A DNA stretch of 64,000 nucleotides from the NCBI GenBank assembly GCA_021209875.1, contig JAGYVD010000001.1:4154001-4218000 (forward strand). The letters run 5' to 3'. Source of the DNA: Rosellinia necatrix. Its lineage: Eukaryota > Ascomycota > Sordariomycetes > Xylariales > Xylariaceae. The first letter of the stretch is position 1, and each line of letters begins with the position of its first letter. Of this stretch, positions 724 to 34,766 are shown piece by piece. Below the pieces are notes generated by a model. The model had not been told where the DNA came from, did no database searches, and saw nothing but the letters and a program-made list of their open reading frames with translations. Position numbers and translations under genes: made by a program.

Positions 724-3700
724 TAAGCACCGCTAAGCTGCGCGATGCAGCACCTTCGTATGTACCTGCTGCCACACTGGGACATGCTACCGACATTCTG
801 GTCGCGGGGTCTATGTTATGGTGCCTGCTAACGCCCGTGTCACTTGACAGGCGAATGGGATACCCAGTGTGGGTGGTACTTTGTCTTGTGGCATCCAGAA
901 GAGGGTCCATTGCTGCGCTAGCAGGTTTTGACTTGGTAGTGGGGTGGAGAGCGACAACCTGGGAGTCTGCTAGGAGTGTTCTGTGCGACCGTACCGAAGA
1001 CTGTACCAGCGATTGGTGGCGGGTGTAGTGGCGTAGGTAGCATGAGTGACCCAGCGCCCGACCTCTTGGTGCACCAAGTTGCTCGATGCGACCGGGATTC
1101 CCTGGACAAATAGGCAGGAGAAAACATGTCAACGCCAAGATCGAACTAAACTCGGCTAAGTAAAGGGCACCAGGCAGTTTGTCCAGATGGACTGGCTGCT
1201 CCGCTGTTATAAAACGACTACAATAACATCTCGATGGAGGTCAAAGGAACTTGTGCATTTGTTTGATGTACAGTATTGAATTGTCTTAGCTTCCCCTCTT
1301 GTTTTTAGCACACCGACGATAAGCTTTATAAAGAAGATTTCCTGTGTAAATAAAAACGTGGTATAGTGTGCTAAGTGTCAGGAGTAGGTAGATGTAAATA
1401 CCATTCTGGTAATCGTACGCGCCGAGGGATGAGTATCACCAGATTTAGTTAGCATCACAAACTCACCCTTGAATCAACTGACTTTGAACTGACTACCTGG
1501 GTAGGTACCTACGGTAGGTCGGCTCTAATATGCCTAGGGGTTTTGGCAGTGCACCTAGTGGTCACGATAACCAACCTGCCTACCTGGCAGTGATGACTTT
1601 GAAACGGGTTACCTTAGGTACCTACTGTATTGTCGCCAAATAACCTTTAGGATGGGGTATGTACGAAGCATGGAACTATTAGCTACCTAGGTAGTAGTAG
1701 TAGTAGTAGTATAGACACCCCTAGGTAGGTAGGCAGTGTATATATGGCATCAGCTCAGTACCTACCTCAGATCAGTCGGTACCTACCTAAGGTAAGTAGT
1801 AGGTAAGTAGCTGTTTCGAGATGATAGATCAATTGTGCCCAGGGACGCAAACTTTATTTGCACACTGCGCGATTCTGCAGCTCCCTTTGGTAGGGTACTA
1901 GGTAGGTAAAGGTCTGCACGAGCCGCACCATAGTATGGTTCACCAATAGCGAGATTGCTCGCGTTTGCTTGCCATACCACCACACCCCACCAATCATCAC
2001 CCGGTGCATGTATGGAGGAAAACTGCATATACTACCTACCGCTGCAGCACTACCTGACTATATTCTGCACGCCCAAACATCTGGGAAGCCAATCGTCCAT
2101 CCTCGAATGCCCCCTCCTCTGGTTTAGTATTGCCCAAGGTCTCGAGAGTTGGTGGCGGACAGGTACCAAGCGGGAATAAGCCACTAATGCAATGTTATAT
2201 CCCTTGATCCTAACTGCGTCTGATGTTATCTATCTCGACATTCCATATAGCTAACGGATATATATACACACACCTCCCTATATCGACAACTAGTATATAG
2301 AGAGAGCCTATCCCGCCGCATTTAGATTCCCTTACTGAGATGCGAAGTAAGAAAGAATCAGGTATGCACATCGAAAAGCAGCACGGGAGGCTGTGTTGAT
2401 TTCTCACGGGTTGGTTTAGTAGGCTTGTCGTGGGTTGATTCTGTCCTTCCTAGTACGTTTAGTGTACGCCAGAGACCTAATCTACTAGTCGAAATGTTCT
2501 GCTTTGTTTGATACCCGAACCATCCCTAACCTACTAAGCAGGCAGCAACCTGGAATTTTCCATGATTAAAAGTGTAACCACGAGGATTGGTGGAATAGGT
2601 CTGCAGTAAGTAGAGTATAAGACATAGCCTACCATGCTATACTCTTCAGAGAAGACCATGAACGGTAGGTATACCCTCCAACAATGGGTTACCAGCGCAC
2701 ACTATGATAATATATAGGTTCATTGGAAGTGCTAGAATATCTTGGCGGGTTGTAACACATGTTGATAGCATTCCCAAAGAGAGAATGATCTATGAACAGG
2801 TGTTGCCCAAACTACCTACGTAGCTACGTGCCACGAGAGCCACCACTGTTTCAAGCATCAAACATGAAAATGTAGTGAAGAAAAAAATTTAATTTTTTTT
2901 TTTTTTTTCATGCCGTCATCCGTCTTAGCTCACTCAACCCTTACTTAGGATATACCTACTTACATGGCAGGCGGATTAGGGAGATAGGGTAGGTACTAGG
3001 CTATGTTTTAGGGGTTGGATTCTGCCTAGAATAGTTATATACAGTGTTTTGTGGTATCACCACGGTACTGCAGAGTATGTGCAGCTTCCGTTTACGCATT
3101 AGTATGGGCTGCAGAACGCGTATGATAGATACCTCTAGCCTCTATTATACACTAGCAAGTGACACGGAACAACATATACTGTACAGAATGCGAACTGCTT
3201 ACTAACAGAATTGGTATTTAGTATGCTACCTAGATTAGGTCGATAAACCTCGACTAACTTATCTTGTAGGGAAGGATTTTGTAATCCTAGCACAATTCCA
3301 TACGTGTGTATGTAACTCTCTATCTAAACACCGAAAGAGGCTGTACTAAGGGTAATAAATATGGACAGTGTGGTCACAGTATGTACGATATGCCGTATGT
3401 AACACAGTACTTACCTAAGTAGGTAGGGTATATTATCTGCGCCATACTTAATTTGTACAAATAGGTACCACAGATTGGATGGCCGAAAACGTACTGTGCA
3501 AAGCATTTGCTAACTTAGTGGCAGTTGCTAAATATATAGATATATATATATGACGACTACAGCATCGTGTCTACACTACTTGTGGCACTTTTAATGAATA
3601 TGTCCACCGTACTAAGAGAAACGCCCATATGACAGTGAAGGGTTCGATCTTCAGAGAATATCTATTATTTTAGGACAGATAGGCGTTGACGTAGTGCAGG

Positions 3701-3847: not shown

Positions 3848-6800
3848 TTGTAAGCAGTACCCTCCCTGCCGATCCAGTCCCCGCTTCGGAGCCCCAGGAG
3901 TGGGTCTCGGTGGGCTGCAGTAGACAGCCCGGAAAGTCAAAGTGAGGAAGCCGCGGGTGGAAAGGGATAATTTCGAGAAGCTGCTAGATCAACCTACTTG
4001 AGTGTGTGATAATTAATGTCTCTCTTTCTCAACAACGGCCGAGATGACGACGGGTGAACTATCTATGCCTCCCATGACTCTCGTCTTTTCGAGAGGCCAC
4101 GCTGGTGCAGTACTCAGGCGCACAGCCGCGGCTTGAGCGACGGCAATATTTCAGCTGACGGTGCTAATCACAGTCGCCACTTGCACTAATAGCTTAGCTA
4201 CCACTAACCTAGCTTGCAGTGCTTGTAGTGCAATATGGAGCGTGCTGGAGTCCAGCAGCGAAGAAGATGGAGCCGGGGTCGGGGCTGGCCCTACTGGCTA
4301 GCAAGCAGTCCGCCCGTTGGTTCCAATGATTGATGAGCTGGGCGCATGAAACCAGCTCAATAACGCAGCCCGCGCGCGCTCTGACAGGCCCAGCCGTCGC
4401 ACTTTATCCGCTCCATCGGGATCCAGCGAATTGGACGCTCGTGCCGTTGGGACGGAGAGGAGGACAAGAACGAGTCCGCTCCAGTTCTCCCAGCAGTCTG
4501 GAACCCATGATCCCTGGCCGTTTTTGCCTCTGCCTCGTGGCAGTAAACCTGTCCGTGGTACCCGAGGACGGATCATTCGTGCCATGTGTGTGAGGTGTGT
4601 GAAGCTACGAGTAGCACCGGAAAGCCGAGCTCAGATAACTAGTGTGTAGTGTATATCCCCATCTTCCAATCCATCTTCCAATCCCACAATGCCGTCCTTA
4701 TCCTCCCCATCTATCTAGGTATATAATTATCATGTTCCAACCGATCCGCACCGCAGGAAAAACCGGCACACTCGCAGCAGCAGTAGCAGCAGCAACAGCA
4801 ACAGCAGTCGCATACCCCAACATACCCACTCAATCTGCCGGAAGTCCCAGCATCGCGGCACTTCGTTGAGAGGTGTTCTGGTTGGCGGATACGCGACCGT
4901 TTACTATTGGGTGCTGAAAATGCTGGAAATGCTGATCCGTCCTCACCGCTTCGACGCCTCCGTGTCCCTATTTGCCTTGGTTGCTTTTATCGCATGTCGG
5001 AACTAGACTGGCCCGAAACAGCCCTATTTCTTATTGTACTTTTTTAACACAAACAAATGTGACGTGTCAAGCCGCCTTAGTTGCCATTGACGTTTAACGC
5101 TTATCTTAGAACAAAAAACACGTGTTTGGCTTTCGGAATAACTCGAACTAGGTTGCTAAAACGTGGTCTGATTGATGAACTAATTAACACAGTTAGGCCG
5201 TTTGATGCTGTCACCTAGTCTATACTACTATATACACAAGTAGGTGGGCAGAGCTTCGGGATTGTCGGCCATACATTACGAAGCGGGGGTTAGTGATGGG
5301 GTGGGCAGAGGCGCCACCAGTATATTTTCTGTCACACCGGCAAAGGGAAGGAGTTTCCTCTTGTGTACAAATGGTGTGCATGATGAAAGGTTTGGCCTCT
5401 ATTACCAACTTCGCCACGCACACCACCTACTTACCGGCCCCTCGGGTCACCAGTTTATGCACTTTTGTGGCCCATACAATGCAAAGAAGCTTATTGCTAG
5501 TCAGCTTCATGCCTAAAAACTATAGGTAACCAAATCCCTAAACTCAACGCTCAGGTAACCTTGTAGCCTCGGCTGACCGGCCAGCCTGACAGGTTTAATA
5601 TCCAAGTACATACATACATTACATAGCCTGACTCGCGAAACCAACCTACCTAGCGATCATCGTGTTTTGGATTAGGTATGTCTTAACGATGAAGCGACAG
5701 CCCTGTCGCCAAAAGTTACCTTTGCAAGCAGCATAGTGTACATACCATGTACTCCACAGCATGGGCCATGACCATCGGGAGAGCCCCATGGTTCGATGTC
5801 ATACATGCAACAAAGCCCACGAGTTCCCCTTCAAGGCCCGTGTGGGCAAATCCTTGGATTCGCCCGATTTCCATCGAAAGATATCTGTTAATTAGTTCTT
5901 ACTGCATGGATAGATCCCCGGGAACCGGCATATGATGACCTGACGAAATGGTTGGTGGGTGGTACAATAAGTGGTGGGAGCAGGGGGACGTGCTGGAATT
6001 TCTGATGACGACTTCGATCAATCGGGTCCACGATCCGTATACCCCTGCAAACCCTTCAAAGAGATGACCCTGTGTGCTCTCATTCGTACAAAGTACGCGT
6101 CCTCATTTCCTGTTTTCTTTCTACGCTGGGTTAAGTCCGAATCTTGCTTAACGAGAGAAAGAGATAACCGAGGACCCAGGGGTCTGGGGAGGCCAAAGCT
6201 TATCAAAGCAAGCCGAGACCCAAGGCTAATTATGCCATCTTCTATTGGCATAATGCAACCTAGCTCGGTGAGATGAATCGCTTGGTTGAGAACTACGGTA
6301 AGGCTGCCTAACTTAGATAGCCTAGTATGAGATTGTCCTCGACCTTTCCTGTCGCATACATAGCCAACCGGGCAAGGTGACTCGTTTGTGAAAACGCGGA
6401 AGAGGACAAGCTTGGCGTATTCTATTCTCTCTAGGACGACGGCCCGATACCTAAATAATCTAGATAATGGAGTCAATCTCTTCAACAATCCTTTTTCATT
6501 TCGGACCGGCAATTCCTGATATTCGGCGTTGGTGGTTCCTCCCATACTGTACGCCTAAGGATGTATGTATCGGCCTCAGCTCTTCGTCTGGCACACTACG
6601 CTCTTGCGCCGTCGCGCGTTCTCCTCTAAGAAACCCACACAACCGTGGAGGCTTTTTGTGTCGAGGCCTACACTGCGGAGATAGCCGTGGGACGGAACGG
6701 CACGCCTGCCATCTCTGTGGACAATCGTGCGCCGTCCCATCAGCTTATGCCTATTTCGCCCTGCGGGTTTGACTCTAAATCACATACGGCTCCGTGCACG

Positions 6801-28400: not shown

Positions 28401-28561
28401 ATGAGGACATCTTGGCTTGAATCATCTGCCCATCTAATTAGTTAACTGTTGGGTCGTAATATGCAGGCGCGCAGCCTGCAGCAACGCGTTTCAACGCGTA
28501 AAATGATGAATCCTGATTCCAAACTTCCCGCTGTCATGCAACGAACAACATCATCGTCGTG
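25490..28561. other. gene-poor, partly AT-rich intergenic region
   Basis: No gene was recognised. The part from about 26640 to 28450 is visibly poorer in GC than the rest, and no ORF there looks coding. It could be an old, decayed repeat, but I see no element ends or repeat unit. Confidence 0.5.
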
Positions 28562-30030
28562 ATGAACATGGCTAAAAAGTATTATGGTGTCCGCAAGGGC
28601 CGTGTTTGCGGCGTGTACACAGATTGGGCACGTTACAAGGAACAGGTAGAGAAATGCGCCAACGAATCCCGCGGCTTTGACACGCGCGATGAGGCCGAGT
28701 TCTACGTCGCGACGGGTCGAACGCGCGGCGGAAGCGATGGCGATGCGCTCTTCGCCCAGTGGAAACGCCGTGCCCGGCAACAACCCAGCCCCCCGCCGAG
28801 CGTCGTCGTCAAGAGCGAGCAGAGGCAGCCGCCGCAGATCAAGGTCGAGGCGGCCTTCGACGCGTCGCAGTCGTACTTCTCCCAGGTGCCAGACTTCAGG
28901 CCCGACGACAAGGCGGACTTCGACGACGAGTTCGGCCGCTTTGCGTCGTCGCAGAACATAGAGCGCGGCTCCCAGGCCTGGCGGCGCACGCGCACGGATG
29001 CCATTCGCCGTAAGTCGTATCTCTCACTGGAGGGGCAGGGATGTTGGGACTCAAGCAGGCACTTGCTCACACCCCGTCGTCCAATGCAGATGAGATGGTA
29101 TTTCATTATTCCCATGAAGACGTAAAAAGAGAGATTAAAGGAGAGGACACGGACGATCGAAGCCTGCCCATGGAGAGGCAGTGCGAGATGACGAAGCTTC
29201 AAGTCTTCCAGAACATGTGCCGAGAGGTCGGGCTCGAGCCCCTTAACACTGCCGATGGCTGCGCCGCGAACCTCAAGAGCGTGCTGGTGAACATCATCGA
29301 CTACATCGATGCGAAGAGGGTCGGCCGGCCCGTCAGGGTTTGGGGGCCACACGAATTCGAAGAGTTCAGGCGATACACATTGAGCGACGAGAAGCGAATC
29401 GACCTCCCGACGGCCAGGGCGAACGGTGGGTTTCTCATACCGCTATTGCAGGTCCTCAGGTCCGAGAACGCGGCCAATTTATACCGCGAGAATAGGTACC
29501 GTGCGGAAACGGCCCGAGAGCGTCATGCCCGCCGCGCGTGGAGACGTGGTTCTGGTCGTAATGCCAAACGATCTCTCTCGATGGTCAAAGAGGAGGCACG
29601 CACGCCGCCTGAGAGTCCGTGGCGAGAGCGCGACCTCGTCTCACCCGCCCGCTGGCCGGAATCCGACCGTTCCTCATCACCTCAACCTTTCAAGGAATCT
29701 GACTACTCCTCGTCGCCTCAATCTATTAAAAGATCTAACTACTCCTCATCACCTCAACCTGTCAAGGAATCCGACTACTCTTCGTCGTCACCTCAACCTG
29801 TCAAGGAACCCGACTATTCTCCGTCACCTCAACCTATCAAGGAGGAGATGGCCGAGACGGACCCGTGGGACACTGAGAGTATCGGATCTTCGGTGATTGA
29901 GATCCTAGATAACATTATTCAAACGGGAACCAAGAGGGTTTTCATCGATCTGACACAGGGGGACGAGGACGAAGACATCACACAAGACGGAGTCACTTTA
30001 TCAAACCCCTATAAACGGGCCCGGTTGTAA
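28562..30030 (+). CDS. RNase H1 N-domain (viroplasmin-like) protein with SUMO-interacting motif
   Basis: The N-terminus (about residues 3-50: MAKKYYGVRKGRVCGVY, then TDWARYKEQVEKC, ESRGFDTRDEAEFYV) matches the small RNA/DNA-hybrid-binding domain found at the start of RNase H1 and in caulimovirus viroplasmin. No RNase H catalytic domain follows. One intron (29010-29089) joins two exons to 462 residues. The middle contains a predicted helical region (LQVFQNMCREVGLEPL, then NLKSVLVNIIDYIDAKRVG). Residues about 343-402 hold five 12-residue repeats of SSSPQPVKESDY type. Near the C-terminus VFIDLT (433-438) followed by QGDEDED is a textbook SUMO-interacting motif. The start may be the Met two codons downstream (28568), which has better context. 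A role in nucleic-acid binding with SUMO recognition is inference. Confidence 0.8.
29671..29850 (+). repeat. 36-bp coding tandem repeat, five units
   Basis: Units encode SSSPQPVKESDY-like peptides with substitutions (SIKRSNY, VKEPDY) and one extra Ser codon. They lie inside the viroplasmin-like gene, in a disordered linker rich in possible phosphorylation sites. Confidence 0.8.
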
Positions 30031-30410: not shown

Positions 30411-31455
30411 TCACGCCTCCGCCTTCGCCTGGCACTCCGCAGGCAGGTCGGCCAACCTGAGCACGCGGACGCCGTCGACCTCGCCGTCGCCCTTGGGATC
30501 GACGTCCGCGAGGCCGGGGGGCATCTGCCTCTGCCTGGCGCCGGGGGGTTTCTCGAGGGCCTTCCAGCGCTCGATGACGTCGCCGACTTGCTTCTCGCGC
30601 TGCCAGCGGGCGACGGCGTCGAAGTCGCGGCACTGCTTGGCGACGGCGAAGTCCGGGAAGGGGTCGGGCTGGCCCTCGCGCCAGTTGAAGGTGACGACGT
30701 CGACGTCGGCGTGGCACATGAGGTTCTCCAGGAGCGTGCCGAGGCAGTGGTTCAGGTGCATGCCGAACTGCAGCGGCGGCGCCAGCCCGTACCGCCGCCC
30801 CCAGTAGTAGTTGTAGTTGGTCACGAGCCCCTGCCGCAGCATGTTGAGGCAGTGGATCTGGTGGAAGACGTCGATCTGCCCCAGGTACCCGTCGCCCCAC
30901 GACTCCGACCACCACGACTCCGGCGCGCGGATGGCCAGGGACGGGTCCTTGCCCAGCCCGCGCACCTCGTCCCCCGAGATGCTGATCAGGTTGACCCGCG
31001 TGATCCGGTCCCAGGCCTCGTCCACGGCCGGGGAGGGGGGCAGGCGGTAGATGTCCCGCGGGTCGGTGGCGTTTGGTATCAGCGGGATGTGGAGGTCCCG
31101 CAGACTTCTGGCTATGTCTAGCTGATCGAGCACAGGCGCTGAAAAGGTCAGCATGGTCGAGCTTTCTATATCATGTCCGGCGTTTGGGCTTGAGCAAGCA
31201 CTCACAGTAGGCGCTGGTCCACTTCAGTAAATGGTTCCCGTGCTTGAAATATGCGAAACAAAGCGTAGCAGTTAGTATATTCGACACGAGGAGAGCGACG
31301 ACCCCTGAAACCCATGGGCACAATTGCTGAGTTCGCTTCTTTGGTCTGTTATAGGGTGCATCTCGAGAGTGTTCGGAGAGAAGACTCTCGTTCTGGCTGA
31401 GGGCGTCATCGCTGGAAAGCGAGCCGCGAACCTTCTCCGTCACGGCCTCGAGCAT
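30411..31455 (-). CDS. UstYa-family (DUF3328) oxidase, likely RiPP maturation enzyme
   Basis: UstYa-family proteins are fungal secretory-pathway oxidases that carry out oxidative cyclisation or other oxidation of RiPP core peptides (ustiloxin, phomopsin and asperipin pathways). One intron (31205-31139) joins two exons to 325 residues. A short cytosolic N-terminus is followed by a membrane anchor at about 47-70 (WVSGVVALLVSNILTATLCF). The lumenal part carries the two diagnostic HxxHC motifs: HQIHC at about 176-180 and HLNHC at about 211-215, the latter followed by LGTLLENLMCHADV. The join WTSAYSPVLDQLD fits the family. I chose the Met at 31455 for its better context; the Met at 31479 adds eight residues. 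It lies head-to-head with the repeat precursor gene 800 nt away, which strongly suggests that the peptide is its substrate. Confidence 0.92.
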
Positions 31456-32254
31456 GGTGTTTTTCGACTGCTCTATCATCCAACCCCACCATGAGACGAG
31501 ATACCACGAGACGAGATGATGATAACGTTCCGCCGGTGGAATTTTCGAGTCAAAGCACAAGTATATGCGCATATAGAAGTAGCACGGCAAAGACCCGAAG
31601 CTGGCCATGCGGCCCGGTCTCAATCATGCCACTTGCGTATGATCCTTCATTCAGAGCATCATCCGTACGATCCAGAGATAGACTATACTATCTACGGATC
31701 AGGAAAGTCCCACACGGCTTCCCAGCATGGAAGCCAAGCATCTAACGCGCGGGGTCGGATACTAGGGTTCGTGTTGATTGGCAAACCGACGTAGATAGGA
31801 TCGTGATTGTCCGGGAGGAGCGGTCAAGAGCGGGTAACTCGCGCCTATCAACGCGGAGGGGATCCGCGGTGTCTAGGCGATATTAATCACGACATCGTCA
31901 ACATCCGACGTCGACAAGACGCCGCCCCAGTTGGTCCTTGGGGCTTCGTGGGATCGTCCCGCTATAATTGGTCGAGGGTACGCCGTAAAATCGGAAGACG
32001 CTGACGTCGATGCACGTATGAGGCGTTGGGCGCGGAGGGCTAGGCTGCGGGGAGAGATCATAGGGGGGCTATGAAGCGTGAAGCCCGGAGCCGAGGGAAC
32101 GACGCTCTCCAGAGCATATATGTAGTATAAAAGACCAACTGTGATCACTTGAAGCACTGGTTGAACTCATGGGCTACACTCTCCGAGCAGACAGACCCCC
32201 AGTGTTTACACCATAATCACTTCCAAGATCGCTCCATTGGCACTCTCAACCATC
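31456..32254. promoter_or_regulatory. divergent promoter between UstYa gene and RiPP precursor
   Basis: The 800-nt gap between two divergent start codons is the only promoter space for both genes. A TATA-like element lies 122 nt before the precursor ATG. GACGTCGA occurs twice (31907 and 32003), the second as TGACGTCGA, resembling a CRE/bZIP half or full site. No ORF here looks coding. Co-regulation is inferred from the arrangement. Confidence 0.55.
32126..32133 (+). promoter_or_regulatory. TATA-like box of precursor gene
   Basis: TATAAAAG lies 122 nt upstream of the precursor start codon, at a plausible distance for a fungal core promoter. It is the best match in the divergent intergenic region. 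Confidence 0.5.
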
Positions 32255-32808
32255 ATGCAACTCCCTTTTATCACAGCGCTACTTGGCGCCTCTCTGGTTT
32301 GCGCGGCCCCTACGGGCTCAGGTATAAATTCAGGACACCAACGGAGCAAAGAGATCATCAGTGCTAATGTTGAGATACAGTCAAGAAGAGTGAAGATGTA
32401 GCCGCTTCGAGGCAAGCCGACCAAGCTCCTGCGCCCTGGCCTCTCTACGTAGCCAAGGATGCAAAGAGAAGCGAGGAGGCCCCCGCGCCCTGGCCATTAT
32501 ACGTAGCCAAAGACGCGAAGAGAAGCGAGGGGGCTGCTTCCCCCTGGCCGCTCTATGTAGCCAAAGACTCGAAGCGGAGCGAGGAGGCCGCCGCGGCGCC
32601 TTGGCCCCTCTATGTAGCCAAGGATGCGAAGAGGAGCGAAGAGGCGGCCCAGCCATGGCCGCTGTATGCGGCCAAAGACGCGAAGAGAAGCGAGGAAGCT
32701 CCCGCGGCGCCCTGGCCTCTGTACGTGGCTAAGGATGCGAAGCGAAGCGAGGAGGCCGCTGCCCCCTGGCCCCTATACGTGGCGAAAGACGGCGGTGCTG
32801 CCGAGTAG
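32255..32808 (+). CDS. secreted repeat precursor of a dikaritin-type RiPP
   Basis: This is a candidate peptide precursor, not an enzyme. One 59-nt intron (32322-32380, branch CTAAT) joins two exons to 164 residues. Residues 1-18 form a signal peptide (MQLPFITALLGASLVCAA). The rest is seven repeats whose core reads PWPLYVAKD; only the fifth differs, with Ala in place of Val. Cores start at 32434, 32488, 32542, 32599, 32653, 32710 and 32764. Between them lie six Lys-Arg sites (AKR or SKR) for Kex2 cleavage, each followed by SE(E/G) and a linker of variable Ala/Pro/Ser/Gln content. The last core is followed by GGAAE and stop. This is the architecture of UstA/PhomA-type precursors. The Tyr and Trp in each core are the likely sites of oxidation by the neighbouring UstYa protein. 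The chemical product is unknown. An alternative is a simple Kex2-processed secreted repeat peptide without modification. Confidence 0.9.
32434..32790 (+). repeat. seven tandem core repeats of 54-57 bp
   Basis: Spacing between successive cores is 54, 54, 57, 54, 57 and 54 bp. Third-position changes are frequent in the core codons but the encoded core is nearly invariant. The linkers vary in length and residues. This pattern suggests selection on the core peptide. Confidence 0.9.
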
Positions 32809-33255: not shown

Positions 33256-34766
33256 TTAAAAGCAGAAGATCTGATCACCCATCTTCGACATGGCGCCCGG
33301 CTTCTCGAAGCCCAGCTCGACGAGGGCCTTCTTCGCCGCATTGACCATCCCCGGCGGTCCGCACAGCATGATCTTCGAGTCCGCCGCGGCCGCGGGGAAG
33401 CGCTCCGCCATGGTATCCTTCGTTACGTGCCCTACGCCCCCTTGCCAATCCGCCGCGGGGGGGTTATCCAGCATGTAGTAGAGCTTGAGGTTGTCGGGGT
33501 ACTTCCTCGCGAAGTCCTCGAGCTCCGTGCGGAGCAGTATGTCCTCCTCCGTCCGGTTGGCGTAGATCAGGTTGATCTCGGTAGTGTCCCGCTGGTCCTC
33601 GCAGATGGCGCGGATCAGCTGGTACATGGGCGTGATCCCCGACCCGCCCGCCAGCATGCCGATCCGCTTGCAGTGGCCGCGCCGGTAGCGCATGGCCCCC
33701 TTGGGCCCGCGGAATTTCACCTCGTCGCCGATTTCCAGGTTCGCCAGGTAGCCGCCCGTCAGCTTGCCGTCCGGATAGCACTTGATGATCAGTTCGAGCG
33801 TGCCTCGGTCGGCGTTGTTGGAGACGGGCGTGTAGGATCGGGTGACTGCTTGGCCGTCGACGGTGGCCGTGATGGCGACGTGCTGCCCGATGGGTAGGCC
33901 AAGGACCGTCCCAGGCGCAGGTAGCTCAAACGCCAGACGATATGTATTTGGCGCGACCAGATCCTTCCCGACCAAGGGTAAAGTTTGGAATGTGGTTGGA
34001 TGCAGCCACCCGCCTTGGCTTAGGAGTTCCGGCTTGGCGCTTTTCGGTAGTTTGACGTGCGAGGGATAGTCCAGGAAGCTGGGATGGGAGTGCAGAAGCC
34101 TAAGGAGTCTCCGGGATAGGACGGTGCTGGCGATGCCAAATGCGGCCGAAGCGATGAGGAAGCCCTCTAAGAACCCGAGACCTTGTGTCCTCCGGGGCAT
34201 CAGGGGCTTTGGCAAGGAAGCGAGCAGTCCCCGTTGGCTGGCGACTTGGTATAATCCCACAGTGCCCAAGGCGGCAACAACTGTCGCCGCACTGAAACGC
34301 GCCACGGTCTTGACGGAGCCCCGAGTGTTGTCGGGCGTGCGTGCTGTGACCCCGATGGATAATCGAACCGTGGACGTTGCCTTCCTGCCGCCGCCGCCCC
34401 GTAATTTGCCGACACGATATGAGGCCATTATTTCCGAAGCATCTTCGGAGTGGCCGGCATTGTCAAACTCTTCTGACGCATCCTTGCCGGCCACATCTAC
34501 GAGTACCTCAGCACCGCCAGGGTGGTCTTGGAGGTAGTCGGTGACATCGTACACTAAAGGGGGGGGGGCGGTAGGGGTAGAGAAGTCAGCGCCGTGTTCA
34601 GGTTGGCTTGCATGATAGGTATGATGATATAAATGGGTGGATATATAAATGGTTGGATATAAATGGGTGGCTTCTTACCTTGACCGTGAATGATCATCCA
34701 CGTATCGTCTGGTGTATTATGGGCGGCGACTTCTTTGGCCGTATATTCGATATCGTCGACAGCCAT
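33256..34766 (-). CDS. cytochrome b5 / NADH-cytochrome b5 reductase fusion
   Basis: The protein passes electrons from NAD(P)H through FAD to a heme and then to acceptors such as desaturases or P450s. Two exons (intron 34678-34554, with a C-rich tract before the acceptor) join to 461 residues. The N-terminal cytochrome b5 domain (about 5-75) has both heme His ligands, in HPGG (H40) and NAGHSEDA (H64). A Gly/Arg-rich linker and hydrophobic segments at about 118-135 and 157-175 follow. The reductase part has RSYTPVSN (268-275, FAD), GGYLANLEIGDEVKFRGPKG (flavin), GGSGITPM (332-339) and CGPPGM (427-432) for NADH, ending in the typical GDQIFCF. It lies between the precursor and the P450 and could supply electrons to the P450. 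It may equally be a housekeeping enzyme. Confidence 0.93.

Follow-up and report, generated by a model that had tools for sequence, protein, structure and literature searches.

We propose that positions 30411..32808 of the analysed window (a 64,000-nucleotide stretch of Rosellinia necatrix DNA) hold a ustiloxin-type (dikaritin) RiPP locus, in which repeated core peptides would be released by Kex2 and oxidised by the adjoining UstYa protein; judged from the sequence, we give this reading a probability of roughly 0.8. The outer coordinates are the stop-codon ends of two divergent genes, a UstYa (DUF3328) oxidase gene and a Kex2-repeat precursor gene, whose ATG codons lie 799 bp apart across an intergenic region (31456..32254) that could serve as a shared promoter. 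Ustiloxin-type RiPPs are recognised by a DUF3328 oxidase close to a Kex2-repeat precursor (PMC7329392; PMC12048977; these papers, like PMC6514808, PMC8403587, PMC10796067 and PMC12435403 below, are cited from the portions of their text available to us). Such a precursor gene beside a DUF3328 gene, with a Tyr in the core, is what we find, and the dikaritin-type reading made in the first-pass annotation is supported by this pairing. In PMC7329392 (2020), a DUF3328 gene is among the 15 nearest genes of 1,758/7,878 repeat precursors, and DUF3328 genes peak at the position adjoining the repeat-precursor genes; the locus is of a known, catalogued kind, and the pairing is more ordinary than that annotation implied.

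The precursor gene (32255..32808, plus strand) encodes 164 residues in two exons, a splice model backed by homologues in three Xylariaceae. Its 59-nt intron (32322..32380, plus strand, GT...AG) was absent from the earlier description, and once the exons are joined the N-terminus aligns with those of the three homologues. The seven PWPLY(V/A)AKD cores and six Lys-Arg sites described previously are present in the spliced gene model; six cores carry V and one A, a KK adds a further dibasic site near the N-terminus, and the cores are separated by acidic/alanine linkers of 9 or 10 residues. With seven cores and six KR, the protein has the repeat structure of Kex2-processed repeat proteins (KEPs), at least three tandem repeats of at least eight residues between dibasic sites. 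Residues 5-16 are hydrophobic by hydropathy and the N-termini of the four precursors are alike; on these grounds we assign a putative signal peptide. The cores are under purifying selection: across the seven repeats, pS is 0.84 and pN 0.02 (Nei-Gojobori-style counts, uncorrected), meaning that the DNA has diverged over time while the peptide was kept constant. The processing signal looks constrained too: over the first seven residues of the linker, the proportions are 0.65 for synonymous and 0.04 for amino-acid-changing differences.

The core is also kept between species. A database search with the precursor (E <=10, 7,217 candidates) found proteins of Xylaria digitata, Ustulina deusta and Xylaria longipes, and a profile built from the four precursors, scored against the 7,987 best-sharing candidates, found nothing beyond these three Xylariaceae proteins. 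They contain 3, 4 and 4 complete cores respectively, so that the core is kept in 18 of the 19 units across the four precursors. The units were gathered with the pattern PWP....KD, which leaves L and Y free; L and Y are nonetheless constant in all 18 complete cores. The exception, outside the 18 and without Tyr, is the first of the four X. digitata units, which lacks most of its core and keeps its KR.

The oxidase gene (30411..31455, minus strand) encodes 325 residues in two exons, a splice model supported by Pfam and motifs, and removal of its 67-nt intron (31139..31205, minus strand) gives a joined protein that agrees with an R. necatrix orthologue (96% identical over 90% of the query). The exon-2 frame matches Pfam PF11807 (E 1.6e-48; 165.9 bits, cut-off 25), and the two HxxHC motifs reported before are confirmed as HQIHC at 176-180 and HLNHC at 211-215. 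A hydrophobic N-terminal helix at residues about 45-70 (hydropathy) completes the signature of the UstYa/DUF3328 family, HxxHC(x)nHxxHC behind an N-terminal membrane helix. In an alignment of 45 of the 86 relatives found, a selection made by hand to be diverse, both motifs keep H, H and C without exception, and W126, Q177, R185, C225 and C253 are likewise invariant. In the structure predicted for the R. necatrix orthologue (mean pLDDT 76.8, pTM 0.64), residues 45-71 form a membrane-type helix and the motifs lie on helices 173-187 and 206-226; these modelled helices are in line with the description of the DUF3328 protein CctR, a membrane-bound, O2-using, two-copper enzyme in which HxxHC(x)nHxxHC binds copper (PMC12435403). 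Solved structures gave no match to the UstYa by sequence, nor did a fold search with the model at E <=0.001 (best 1.8), and for this reason we take only secondary structure from it.

The 86 relatives were found at E 1e-20 or better. Those 69-81% identical to the window protein are named Xylariaceae/Xylariales proteins plus three further sequences. A protein of Talaromyces atroroseus, from a distant order, follows at 60%, the next match by score being at 49%; its sequence makes horizontal transfer possible. Proteins of the lichen fungi Lobaria immixta and Toensbergia leucococca are 48 and 49% identical, and most remaining relatives fall below 49%, apart from a few short matches of up to 54%. 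Both genes are on record for U. deusta and for X. longipes, from different assemblies judging by locus names, and X. digitata has no UstYa under its own name among the 86 matches. Together, these sequences point to a compact candidate RiPP family common to several Xylariaceae.

Could the precursor instead yield a linear peptide that is secreted without modification, as a signal, a pheromone-like or a host-directed molecule, the UstYa being a mere neighbour or making a small change such as a hydroxylation? We consider this unlikely. Linkers rich in E and A after KR, such as those seen here, occur in precursors trimmed by dipeptidases and would suit a linear peptide. So would the 6,120/7,878 Kex2-repeat proteins that have no DUF3328 gene nearby (PMC7329392) and the activity of CctR, which is a hydroxylase and not a cyclase (PMC12435403). 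Against this, mating-factor precursors are nearly never found near DUF3328 genes (0/227 yeast-type and 3/216 other pheromone genes; PMC7329392), and the core has, by eye, neither the Cys pair nor the pheromone motifs of PMC6339444. An alpha-pheromone precursor in particular is rejected on this core, with no Cys and none of those motifs, and on the linker, since the Ste13 signature (X-Ala/X-Pro after KR/RR) occurs, by eye, at 1/15 sites in the four precursors.

Possible partners of the pair lie on the precursor's side of the locus. A cytochrome b5 + cytochrome b5 reductase fusion (33259..34674, minus strand; Pfam, open frame) has two hydrophobic segments between its domains (hydropathy), and among the matches listed there is no second site in the genome that matches both the b5 and the reductase parts. 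CctR needs electrons, and an accessory donor has been postulated for copper DUF3328 oxidases (PMC12435403); it is possible that the fusion is this electron donor and a putative cluster member, or it may be an ordinary gene. A b5 reductase as standard partner of UstYa was considered and rejected: by coordinates, each of the seven other family matches is more than 10 kb away from any of the 13 remaining UstYa loci, the nearest being about 25 kb from one, on contig C4. Further out, a cytochrome P450 gene (36500..38020, plus strand; Pfam 7.6e-64, haem motif FAAGPRMCIG) is another putative cluster member; ranked by E-value, the match that follows it in the genome is 23% identical. On the other flank, beyond the UstYa gene, a gene with a ribonuclease H1 N-terminal domain occupies 28517-29122. 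A frame at 29650-29860, past the UstYa 3' end, contains imperfect SSPQPxKExDY repeats; it is probably part of this same gene. A scan of 50 window frames recognised no transporter, peptidase or zinc-cluster regulator family, with the proviso that small or multi-exon genes may escape it.

Seen from the UstYa gene, the P450 and the reductase are both beyond the precursor, and DUF3328 enzymes also occur in a non-ribosomal pathway (PMC12435403). It is therefore conceivable that UstYa, b5 reductase and P450 are parts of a different pathway, with the precursor between them by chance, which we regard as improbable for several reasons: (i), the same 50 frames contain no recognised PKS, NRPS or other core biosynthetic enzyme; (ii), a random gene would fall within 5 kb of one of the 14 UstYa loci of this genome (28 matches, grouped by hand) with a probability of about 0.003; (iii), the pairing of UstYa and precursor recurs in the genome. 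We scanned the 9.9 kb surrounding every other UstYa locus (13), seven control stretches of contig C1 and the window itself. The criterion was three or more similar pieces, 8-100 residues long, bounded by dibasic sites. Besides recovering the window precursor, the scan found a Kex2-type repeat precursor at 3/13 other UstYa loci and 0/7 control stretches, a contrast that is weak taken alone; at 10/13 there is no repeat precursor in the 9.9 kb scanned. If the 5.25 Kex2-repeat genes per ascomycete genome (PMC7329392) were evenly spread, 0.014 would be expected in 13 stretches (P ~4e-7), bearing in mind that our scan criteria differ from those behind the 5.25.

The three additional precursors have quite different cores. 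The first (L015; G000:C8:4725000-4734900, 4973-5521) lies between two UstYa matches, has a hydrophobic start and repeats (S/A/G)ES(D/E)(I/V)DVADAF, with 10 pieces grouped and about eleven ESDIDVADAF-type units; its core has neither Tyr nor Trp, and so a UstYa neighbour is no proof of a Tyr bond. The second (L019; G000:C2:399000-408900, 2406-2987) is a precursor-like frame divergent from a UstYa match, with DAITFRYPIF-type units in three pieces between dibasic sites (four with looser settings). The third (L020; G000:C3:1772100-1782000, 3208-3630) is on the strand opposite a UstYa match and divergent from it, a layout like that of the window pair, and its seven grouped pieces repeat KDND(D/E)IWLW, a core with Trp and no Tyr. 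These UstYa-precursor neighbourhoods offer a within-species comparison for the PWPLY locus.

Elsewhere in the genome, around G000:C7:3389172-3389270 on the minus strand (L010), there is a weak match to the PWPLY precursor (E 0.006), with two recognisable core pieces and each of the strand's three frames interrupted by stop codons; no UstYa match is listed in its vicinity. This is a probable broken second copy, and the precursor family may be gaining and losing copies. That the window locus is itself silent or decaying, with no product in this strain, would fit the broken copy and the damaged X. digitata unit, yet appears very improbable for a gene without visible disabling change whose seven cores look kept by selection.

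How would the oxidised-core peptide be made? We hypothesize that the precursor enters the secretory pathway and that Kex2 cleaves it after each KR in the Golgi, which would give up to seven peptides containing PWPLYVAKD. The UstYa would be membrane-anchored, its two HxxHC motifs presumably holding a lumen-facing two-copper centre, and would oxidise the core, most likely through a ring closed from the Tyr phenol (or the Trp) to the carbon of a neighbouring conserved residue. Among the 18 complete cores, the residue after Tyr is V in 16, A in one and I in one, and the next is A in 17 and V in one, so that the cores read YVA, YAA, YVV or YIA and not YxI. As the residue two after Tyr is Ala (17/18) or Val (1/18) and not Ile, the bond must differ from that of ustiloxin and phomopsin. 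Candidate partners in the sequence are the invariant W, P and L that precede Tyr, or the K that follows it. In plant cyclopeptide alkaloids, a Tyr-O-to-Pro bond occurs in Pro-X-Tyr units, which makes P-L-Y one candidate for the bond. More specifically, the UstYa might form a bond new for its family (Trp-Tyr across WPLY, or Tyr bonded to the Pro or Leu ahead of it) with the b5/b5-reductase fusion as electron donor, a combined proposal that we hold to be a long shot. In a core where Trp and Tyr are both constant and the bond known from ustiloxin is excluded by sequence, the structure of the product, if a product exists, would reveal which residues can be joined by a single UstYa, and the adjoining b5 reductase allows a direct test of the electron source for copper DUF3328 oxidases.

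The first-pass annotation also called the locus a candidate undescribed one. Within the paper text covered by our string and topic searches, the PWPLY core is in no fungal paper, the matches to this string concerning, by title, hepatitis C virus, vaccine peptides or serology; "undescribed" is to be read as provisional on that scope. PMC10796067 reports 48 antiSMASH clusters for R. necatrix strain R18, and the term "RiPP" is absent from the available main text of that paper, as it is from a Xylaria genome paper (PMC13293291). RiPP clusters are nevertheless described from a related family: in the Hypoxylaceae, ustiloxin-like clusters of Hypomontagnella, Hypoxylon rubiginosum and H. pulicicidum were found by the similarity of their precursors to known ones (PMC8403587). 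The type P-3 repeat precursors resemble the PWPLY precursor in architecture and in having a Trp/Pro core near DUF3328 genes, but in the text available they come from Fonsecaea, Cladophialophora, Galerina, Psilocybe and Coprinellus and not from Xylariaceae (PMC7329392).

Among characterised systems, the ustiloxin B (ust) and phomopsin (phom) loci share with the window Tyr-core repeats separated by Kex2 sites and a DUF3328 oxidase, and their signal peptide would have its counterpart in the hydrophobic N-terminus here. There, however, a tyrosinase is needed and Tyr is joined to the Ile two residues on, in YAIG and YVIP (PMC7329392). A relative of ustiloxin or phomopsin is rejected here on a core without YxI and on the lack of a tyrosinase match on contig C1 (0 of the 22 genome matches listed). 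Asperipin-2a (apr) of Aspergillus flavus is closer: its four-gene cluster combines one UstYa homologue (AprY) with a repeated core and, in the accounts available, has no tyrosinase, just as none matched on C1 (PMC6514808; PMC7329392). It differs in its core, FYYTGY, and in having a transporter and an isoflavone-reductase-like enzyme, neither of which was recognised here. In asperipin-2a, Tyr side chains are joined to beta-carbons with one UstYa-type enzyme in the pathway (PMC6514808), and it is the best template for the chemistry of a PWPLY product.
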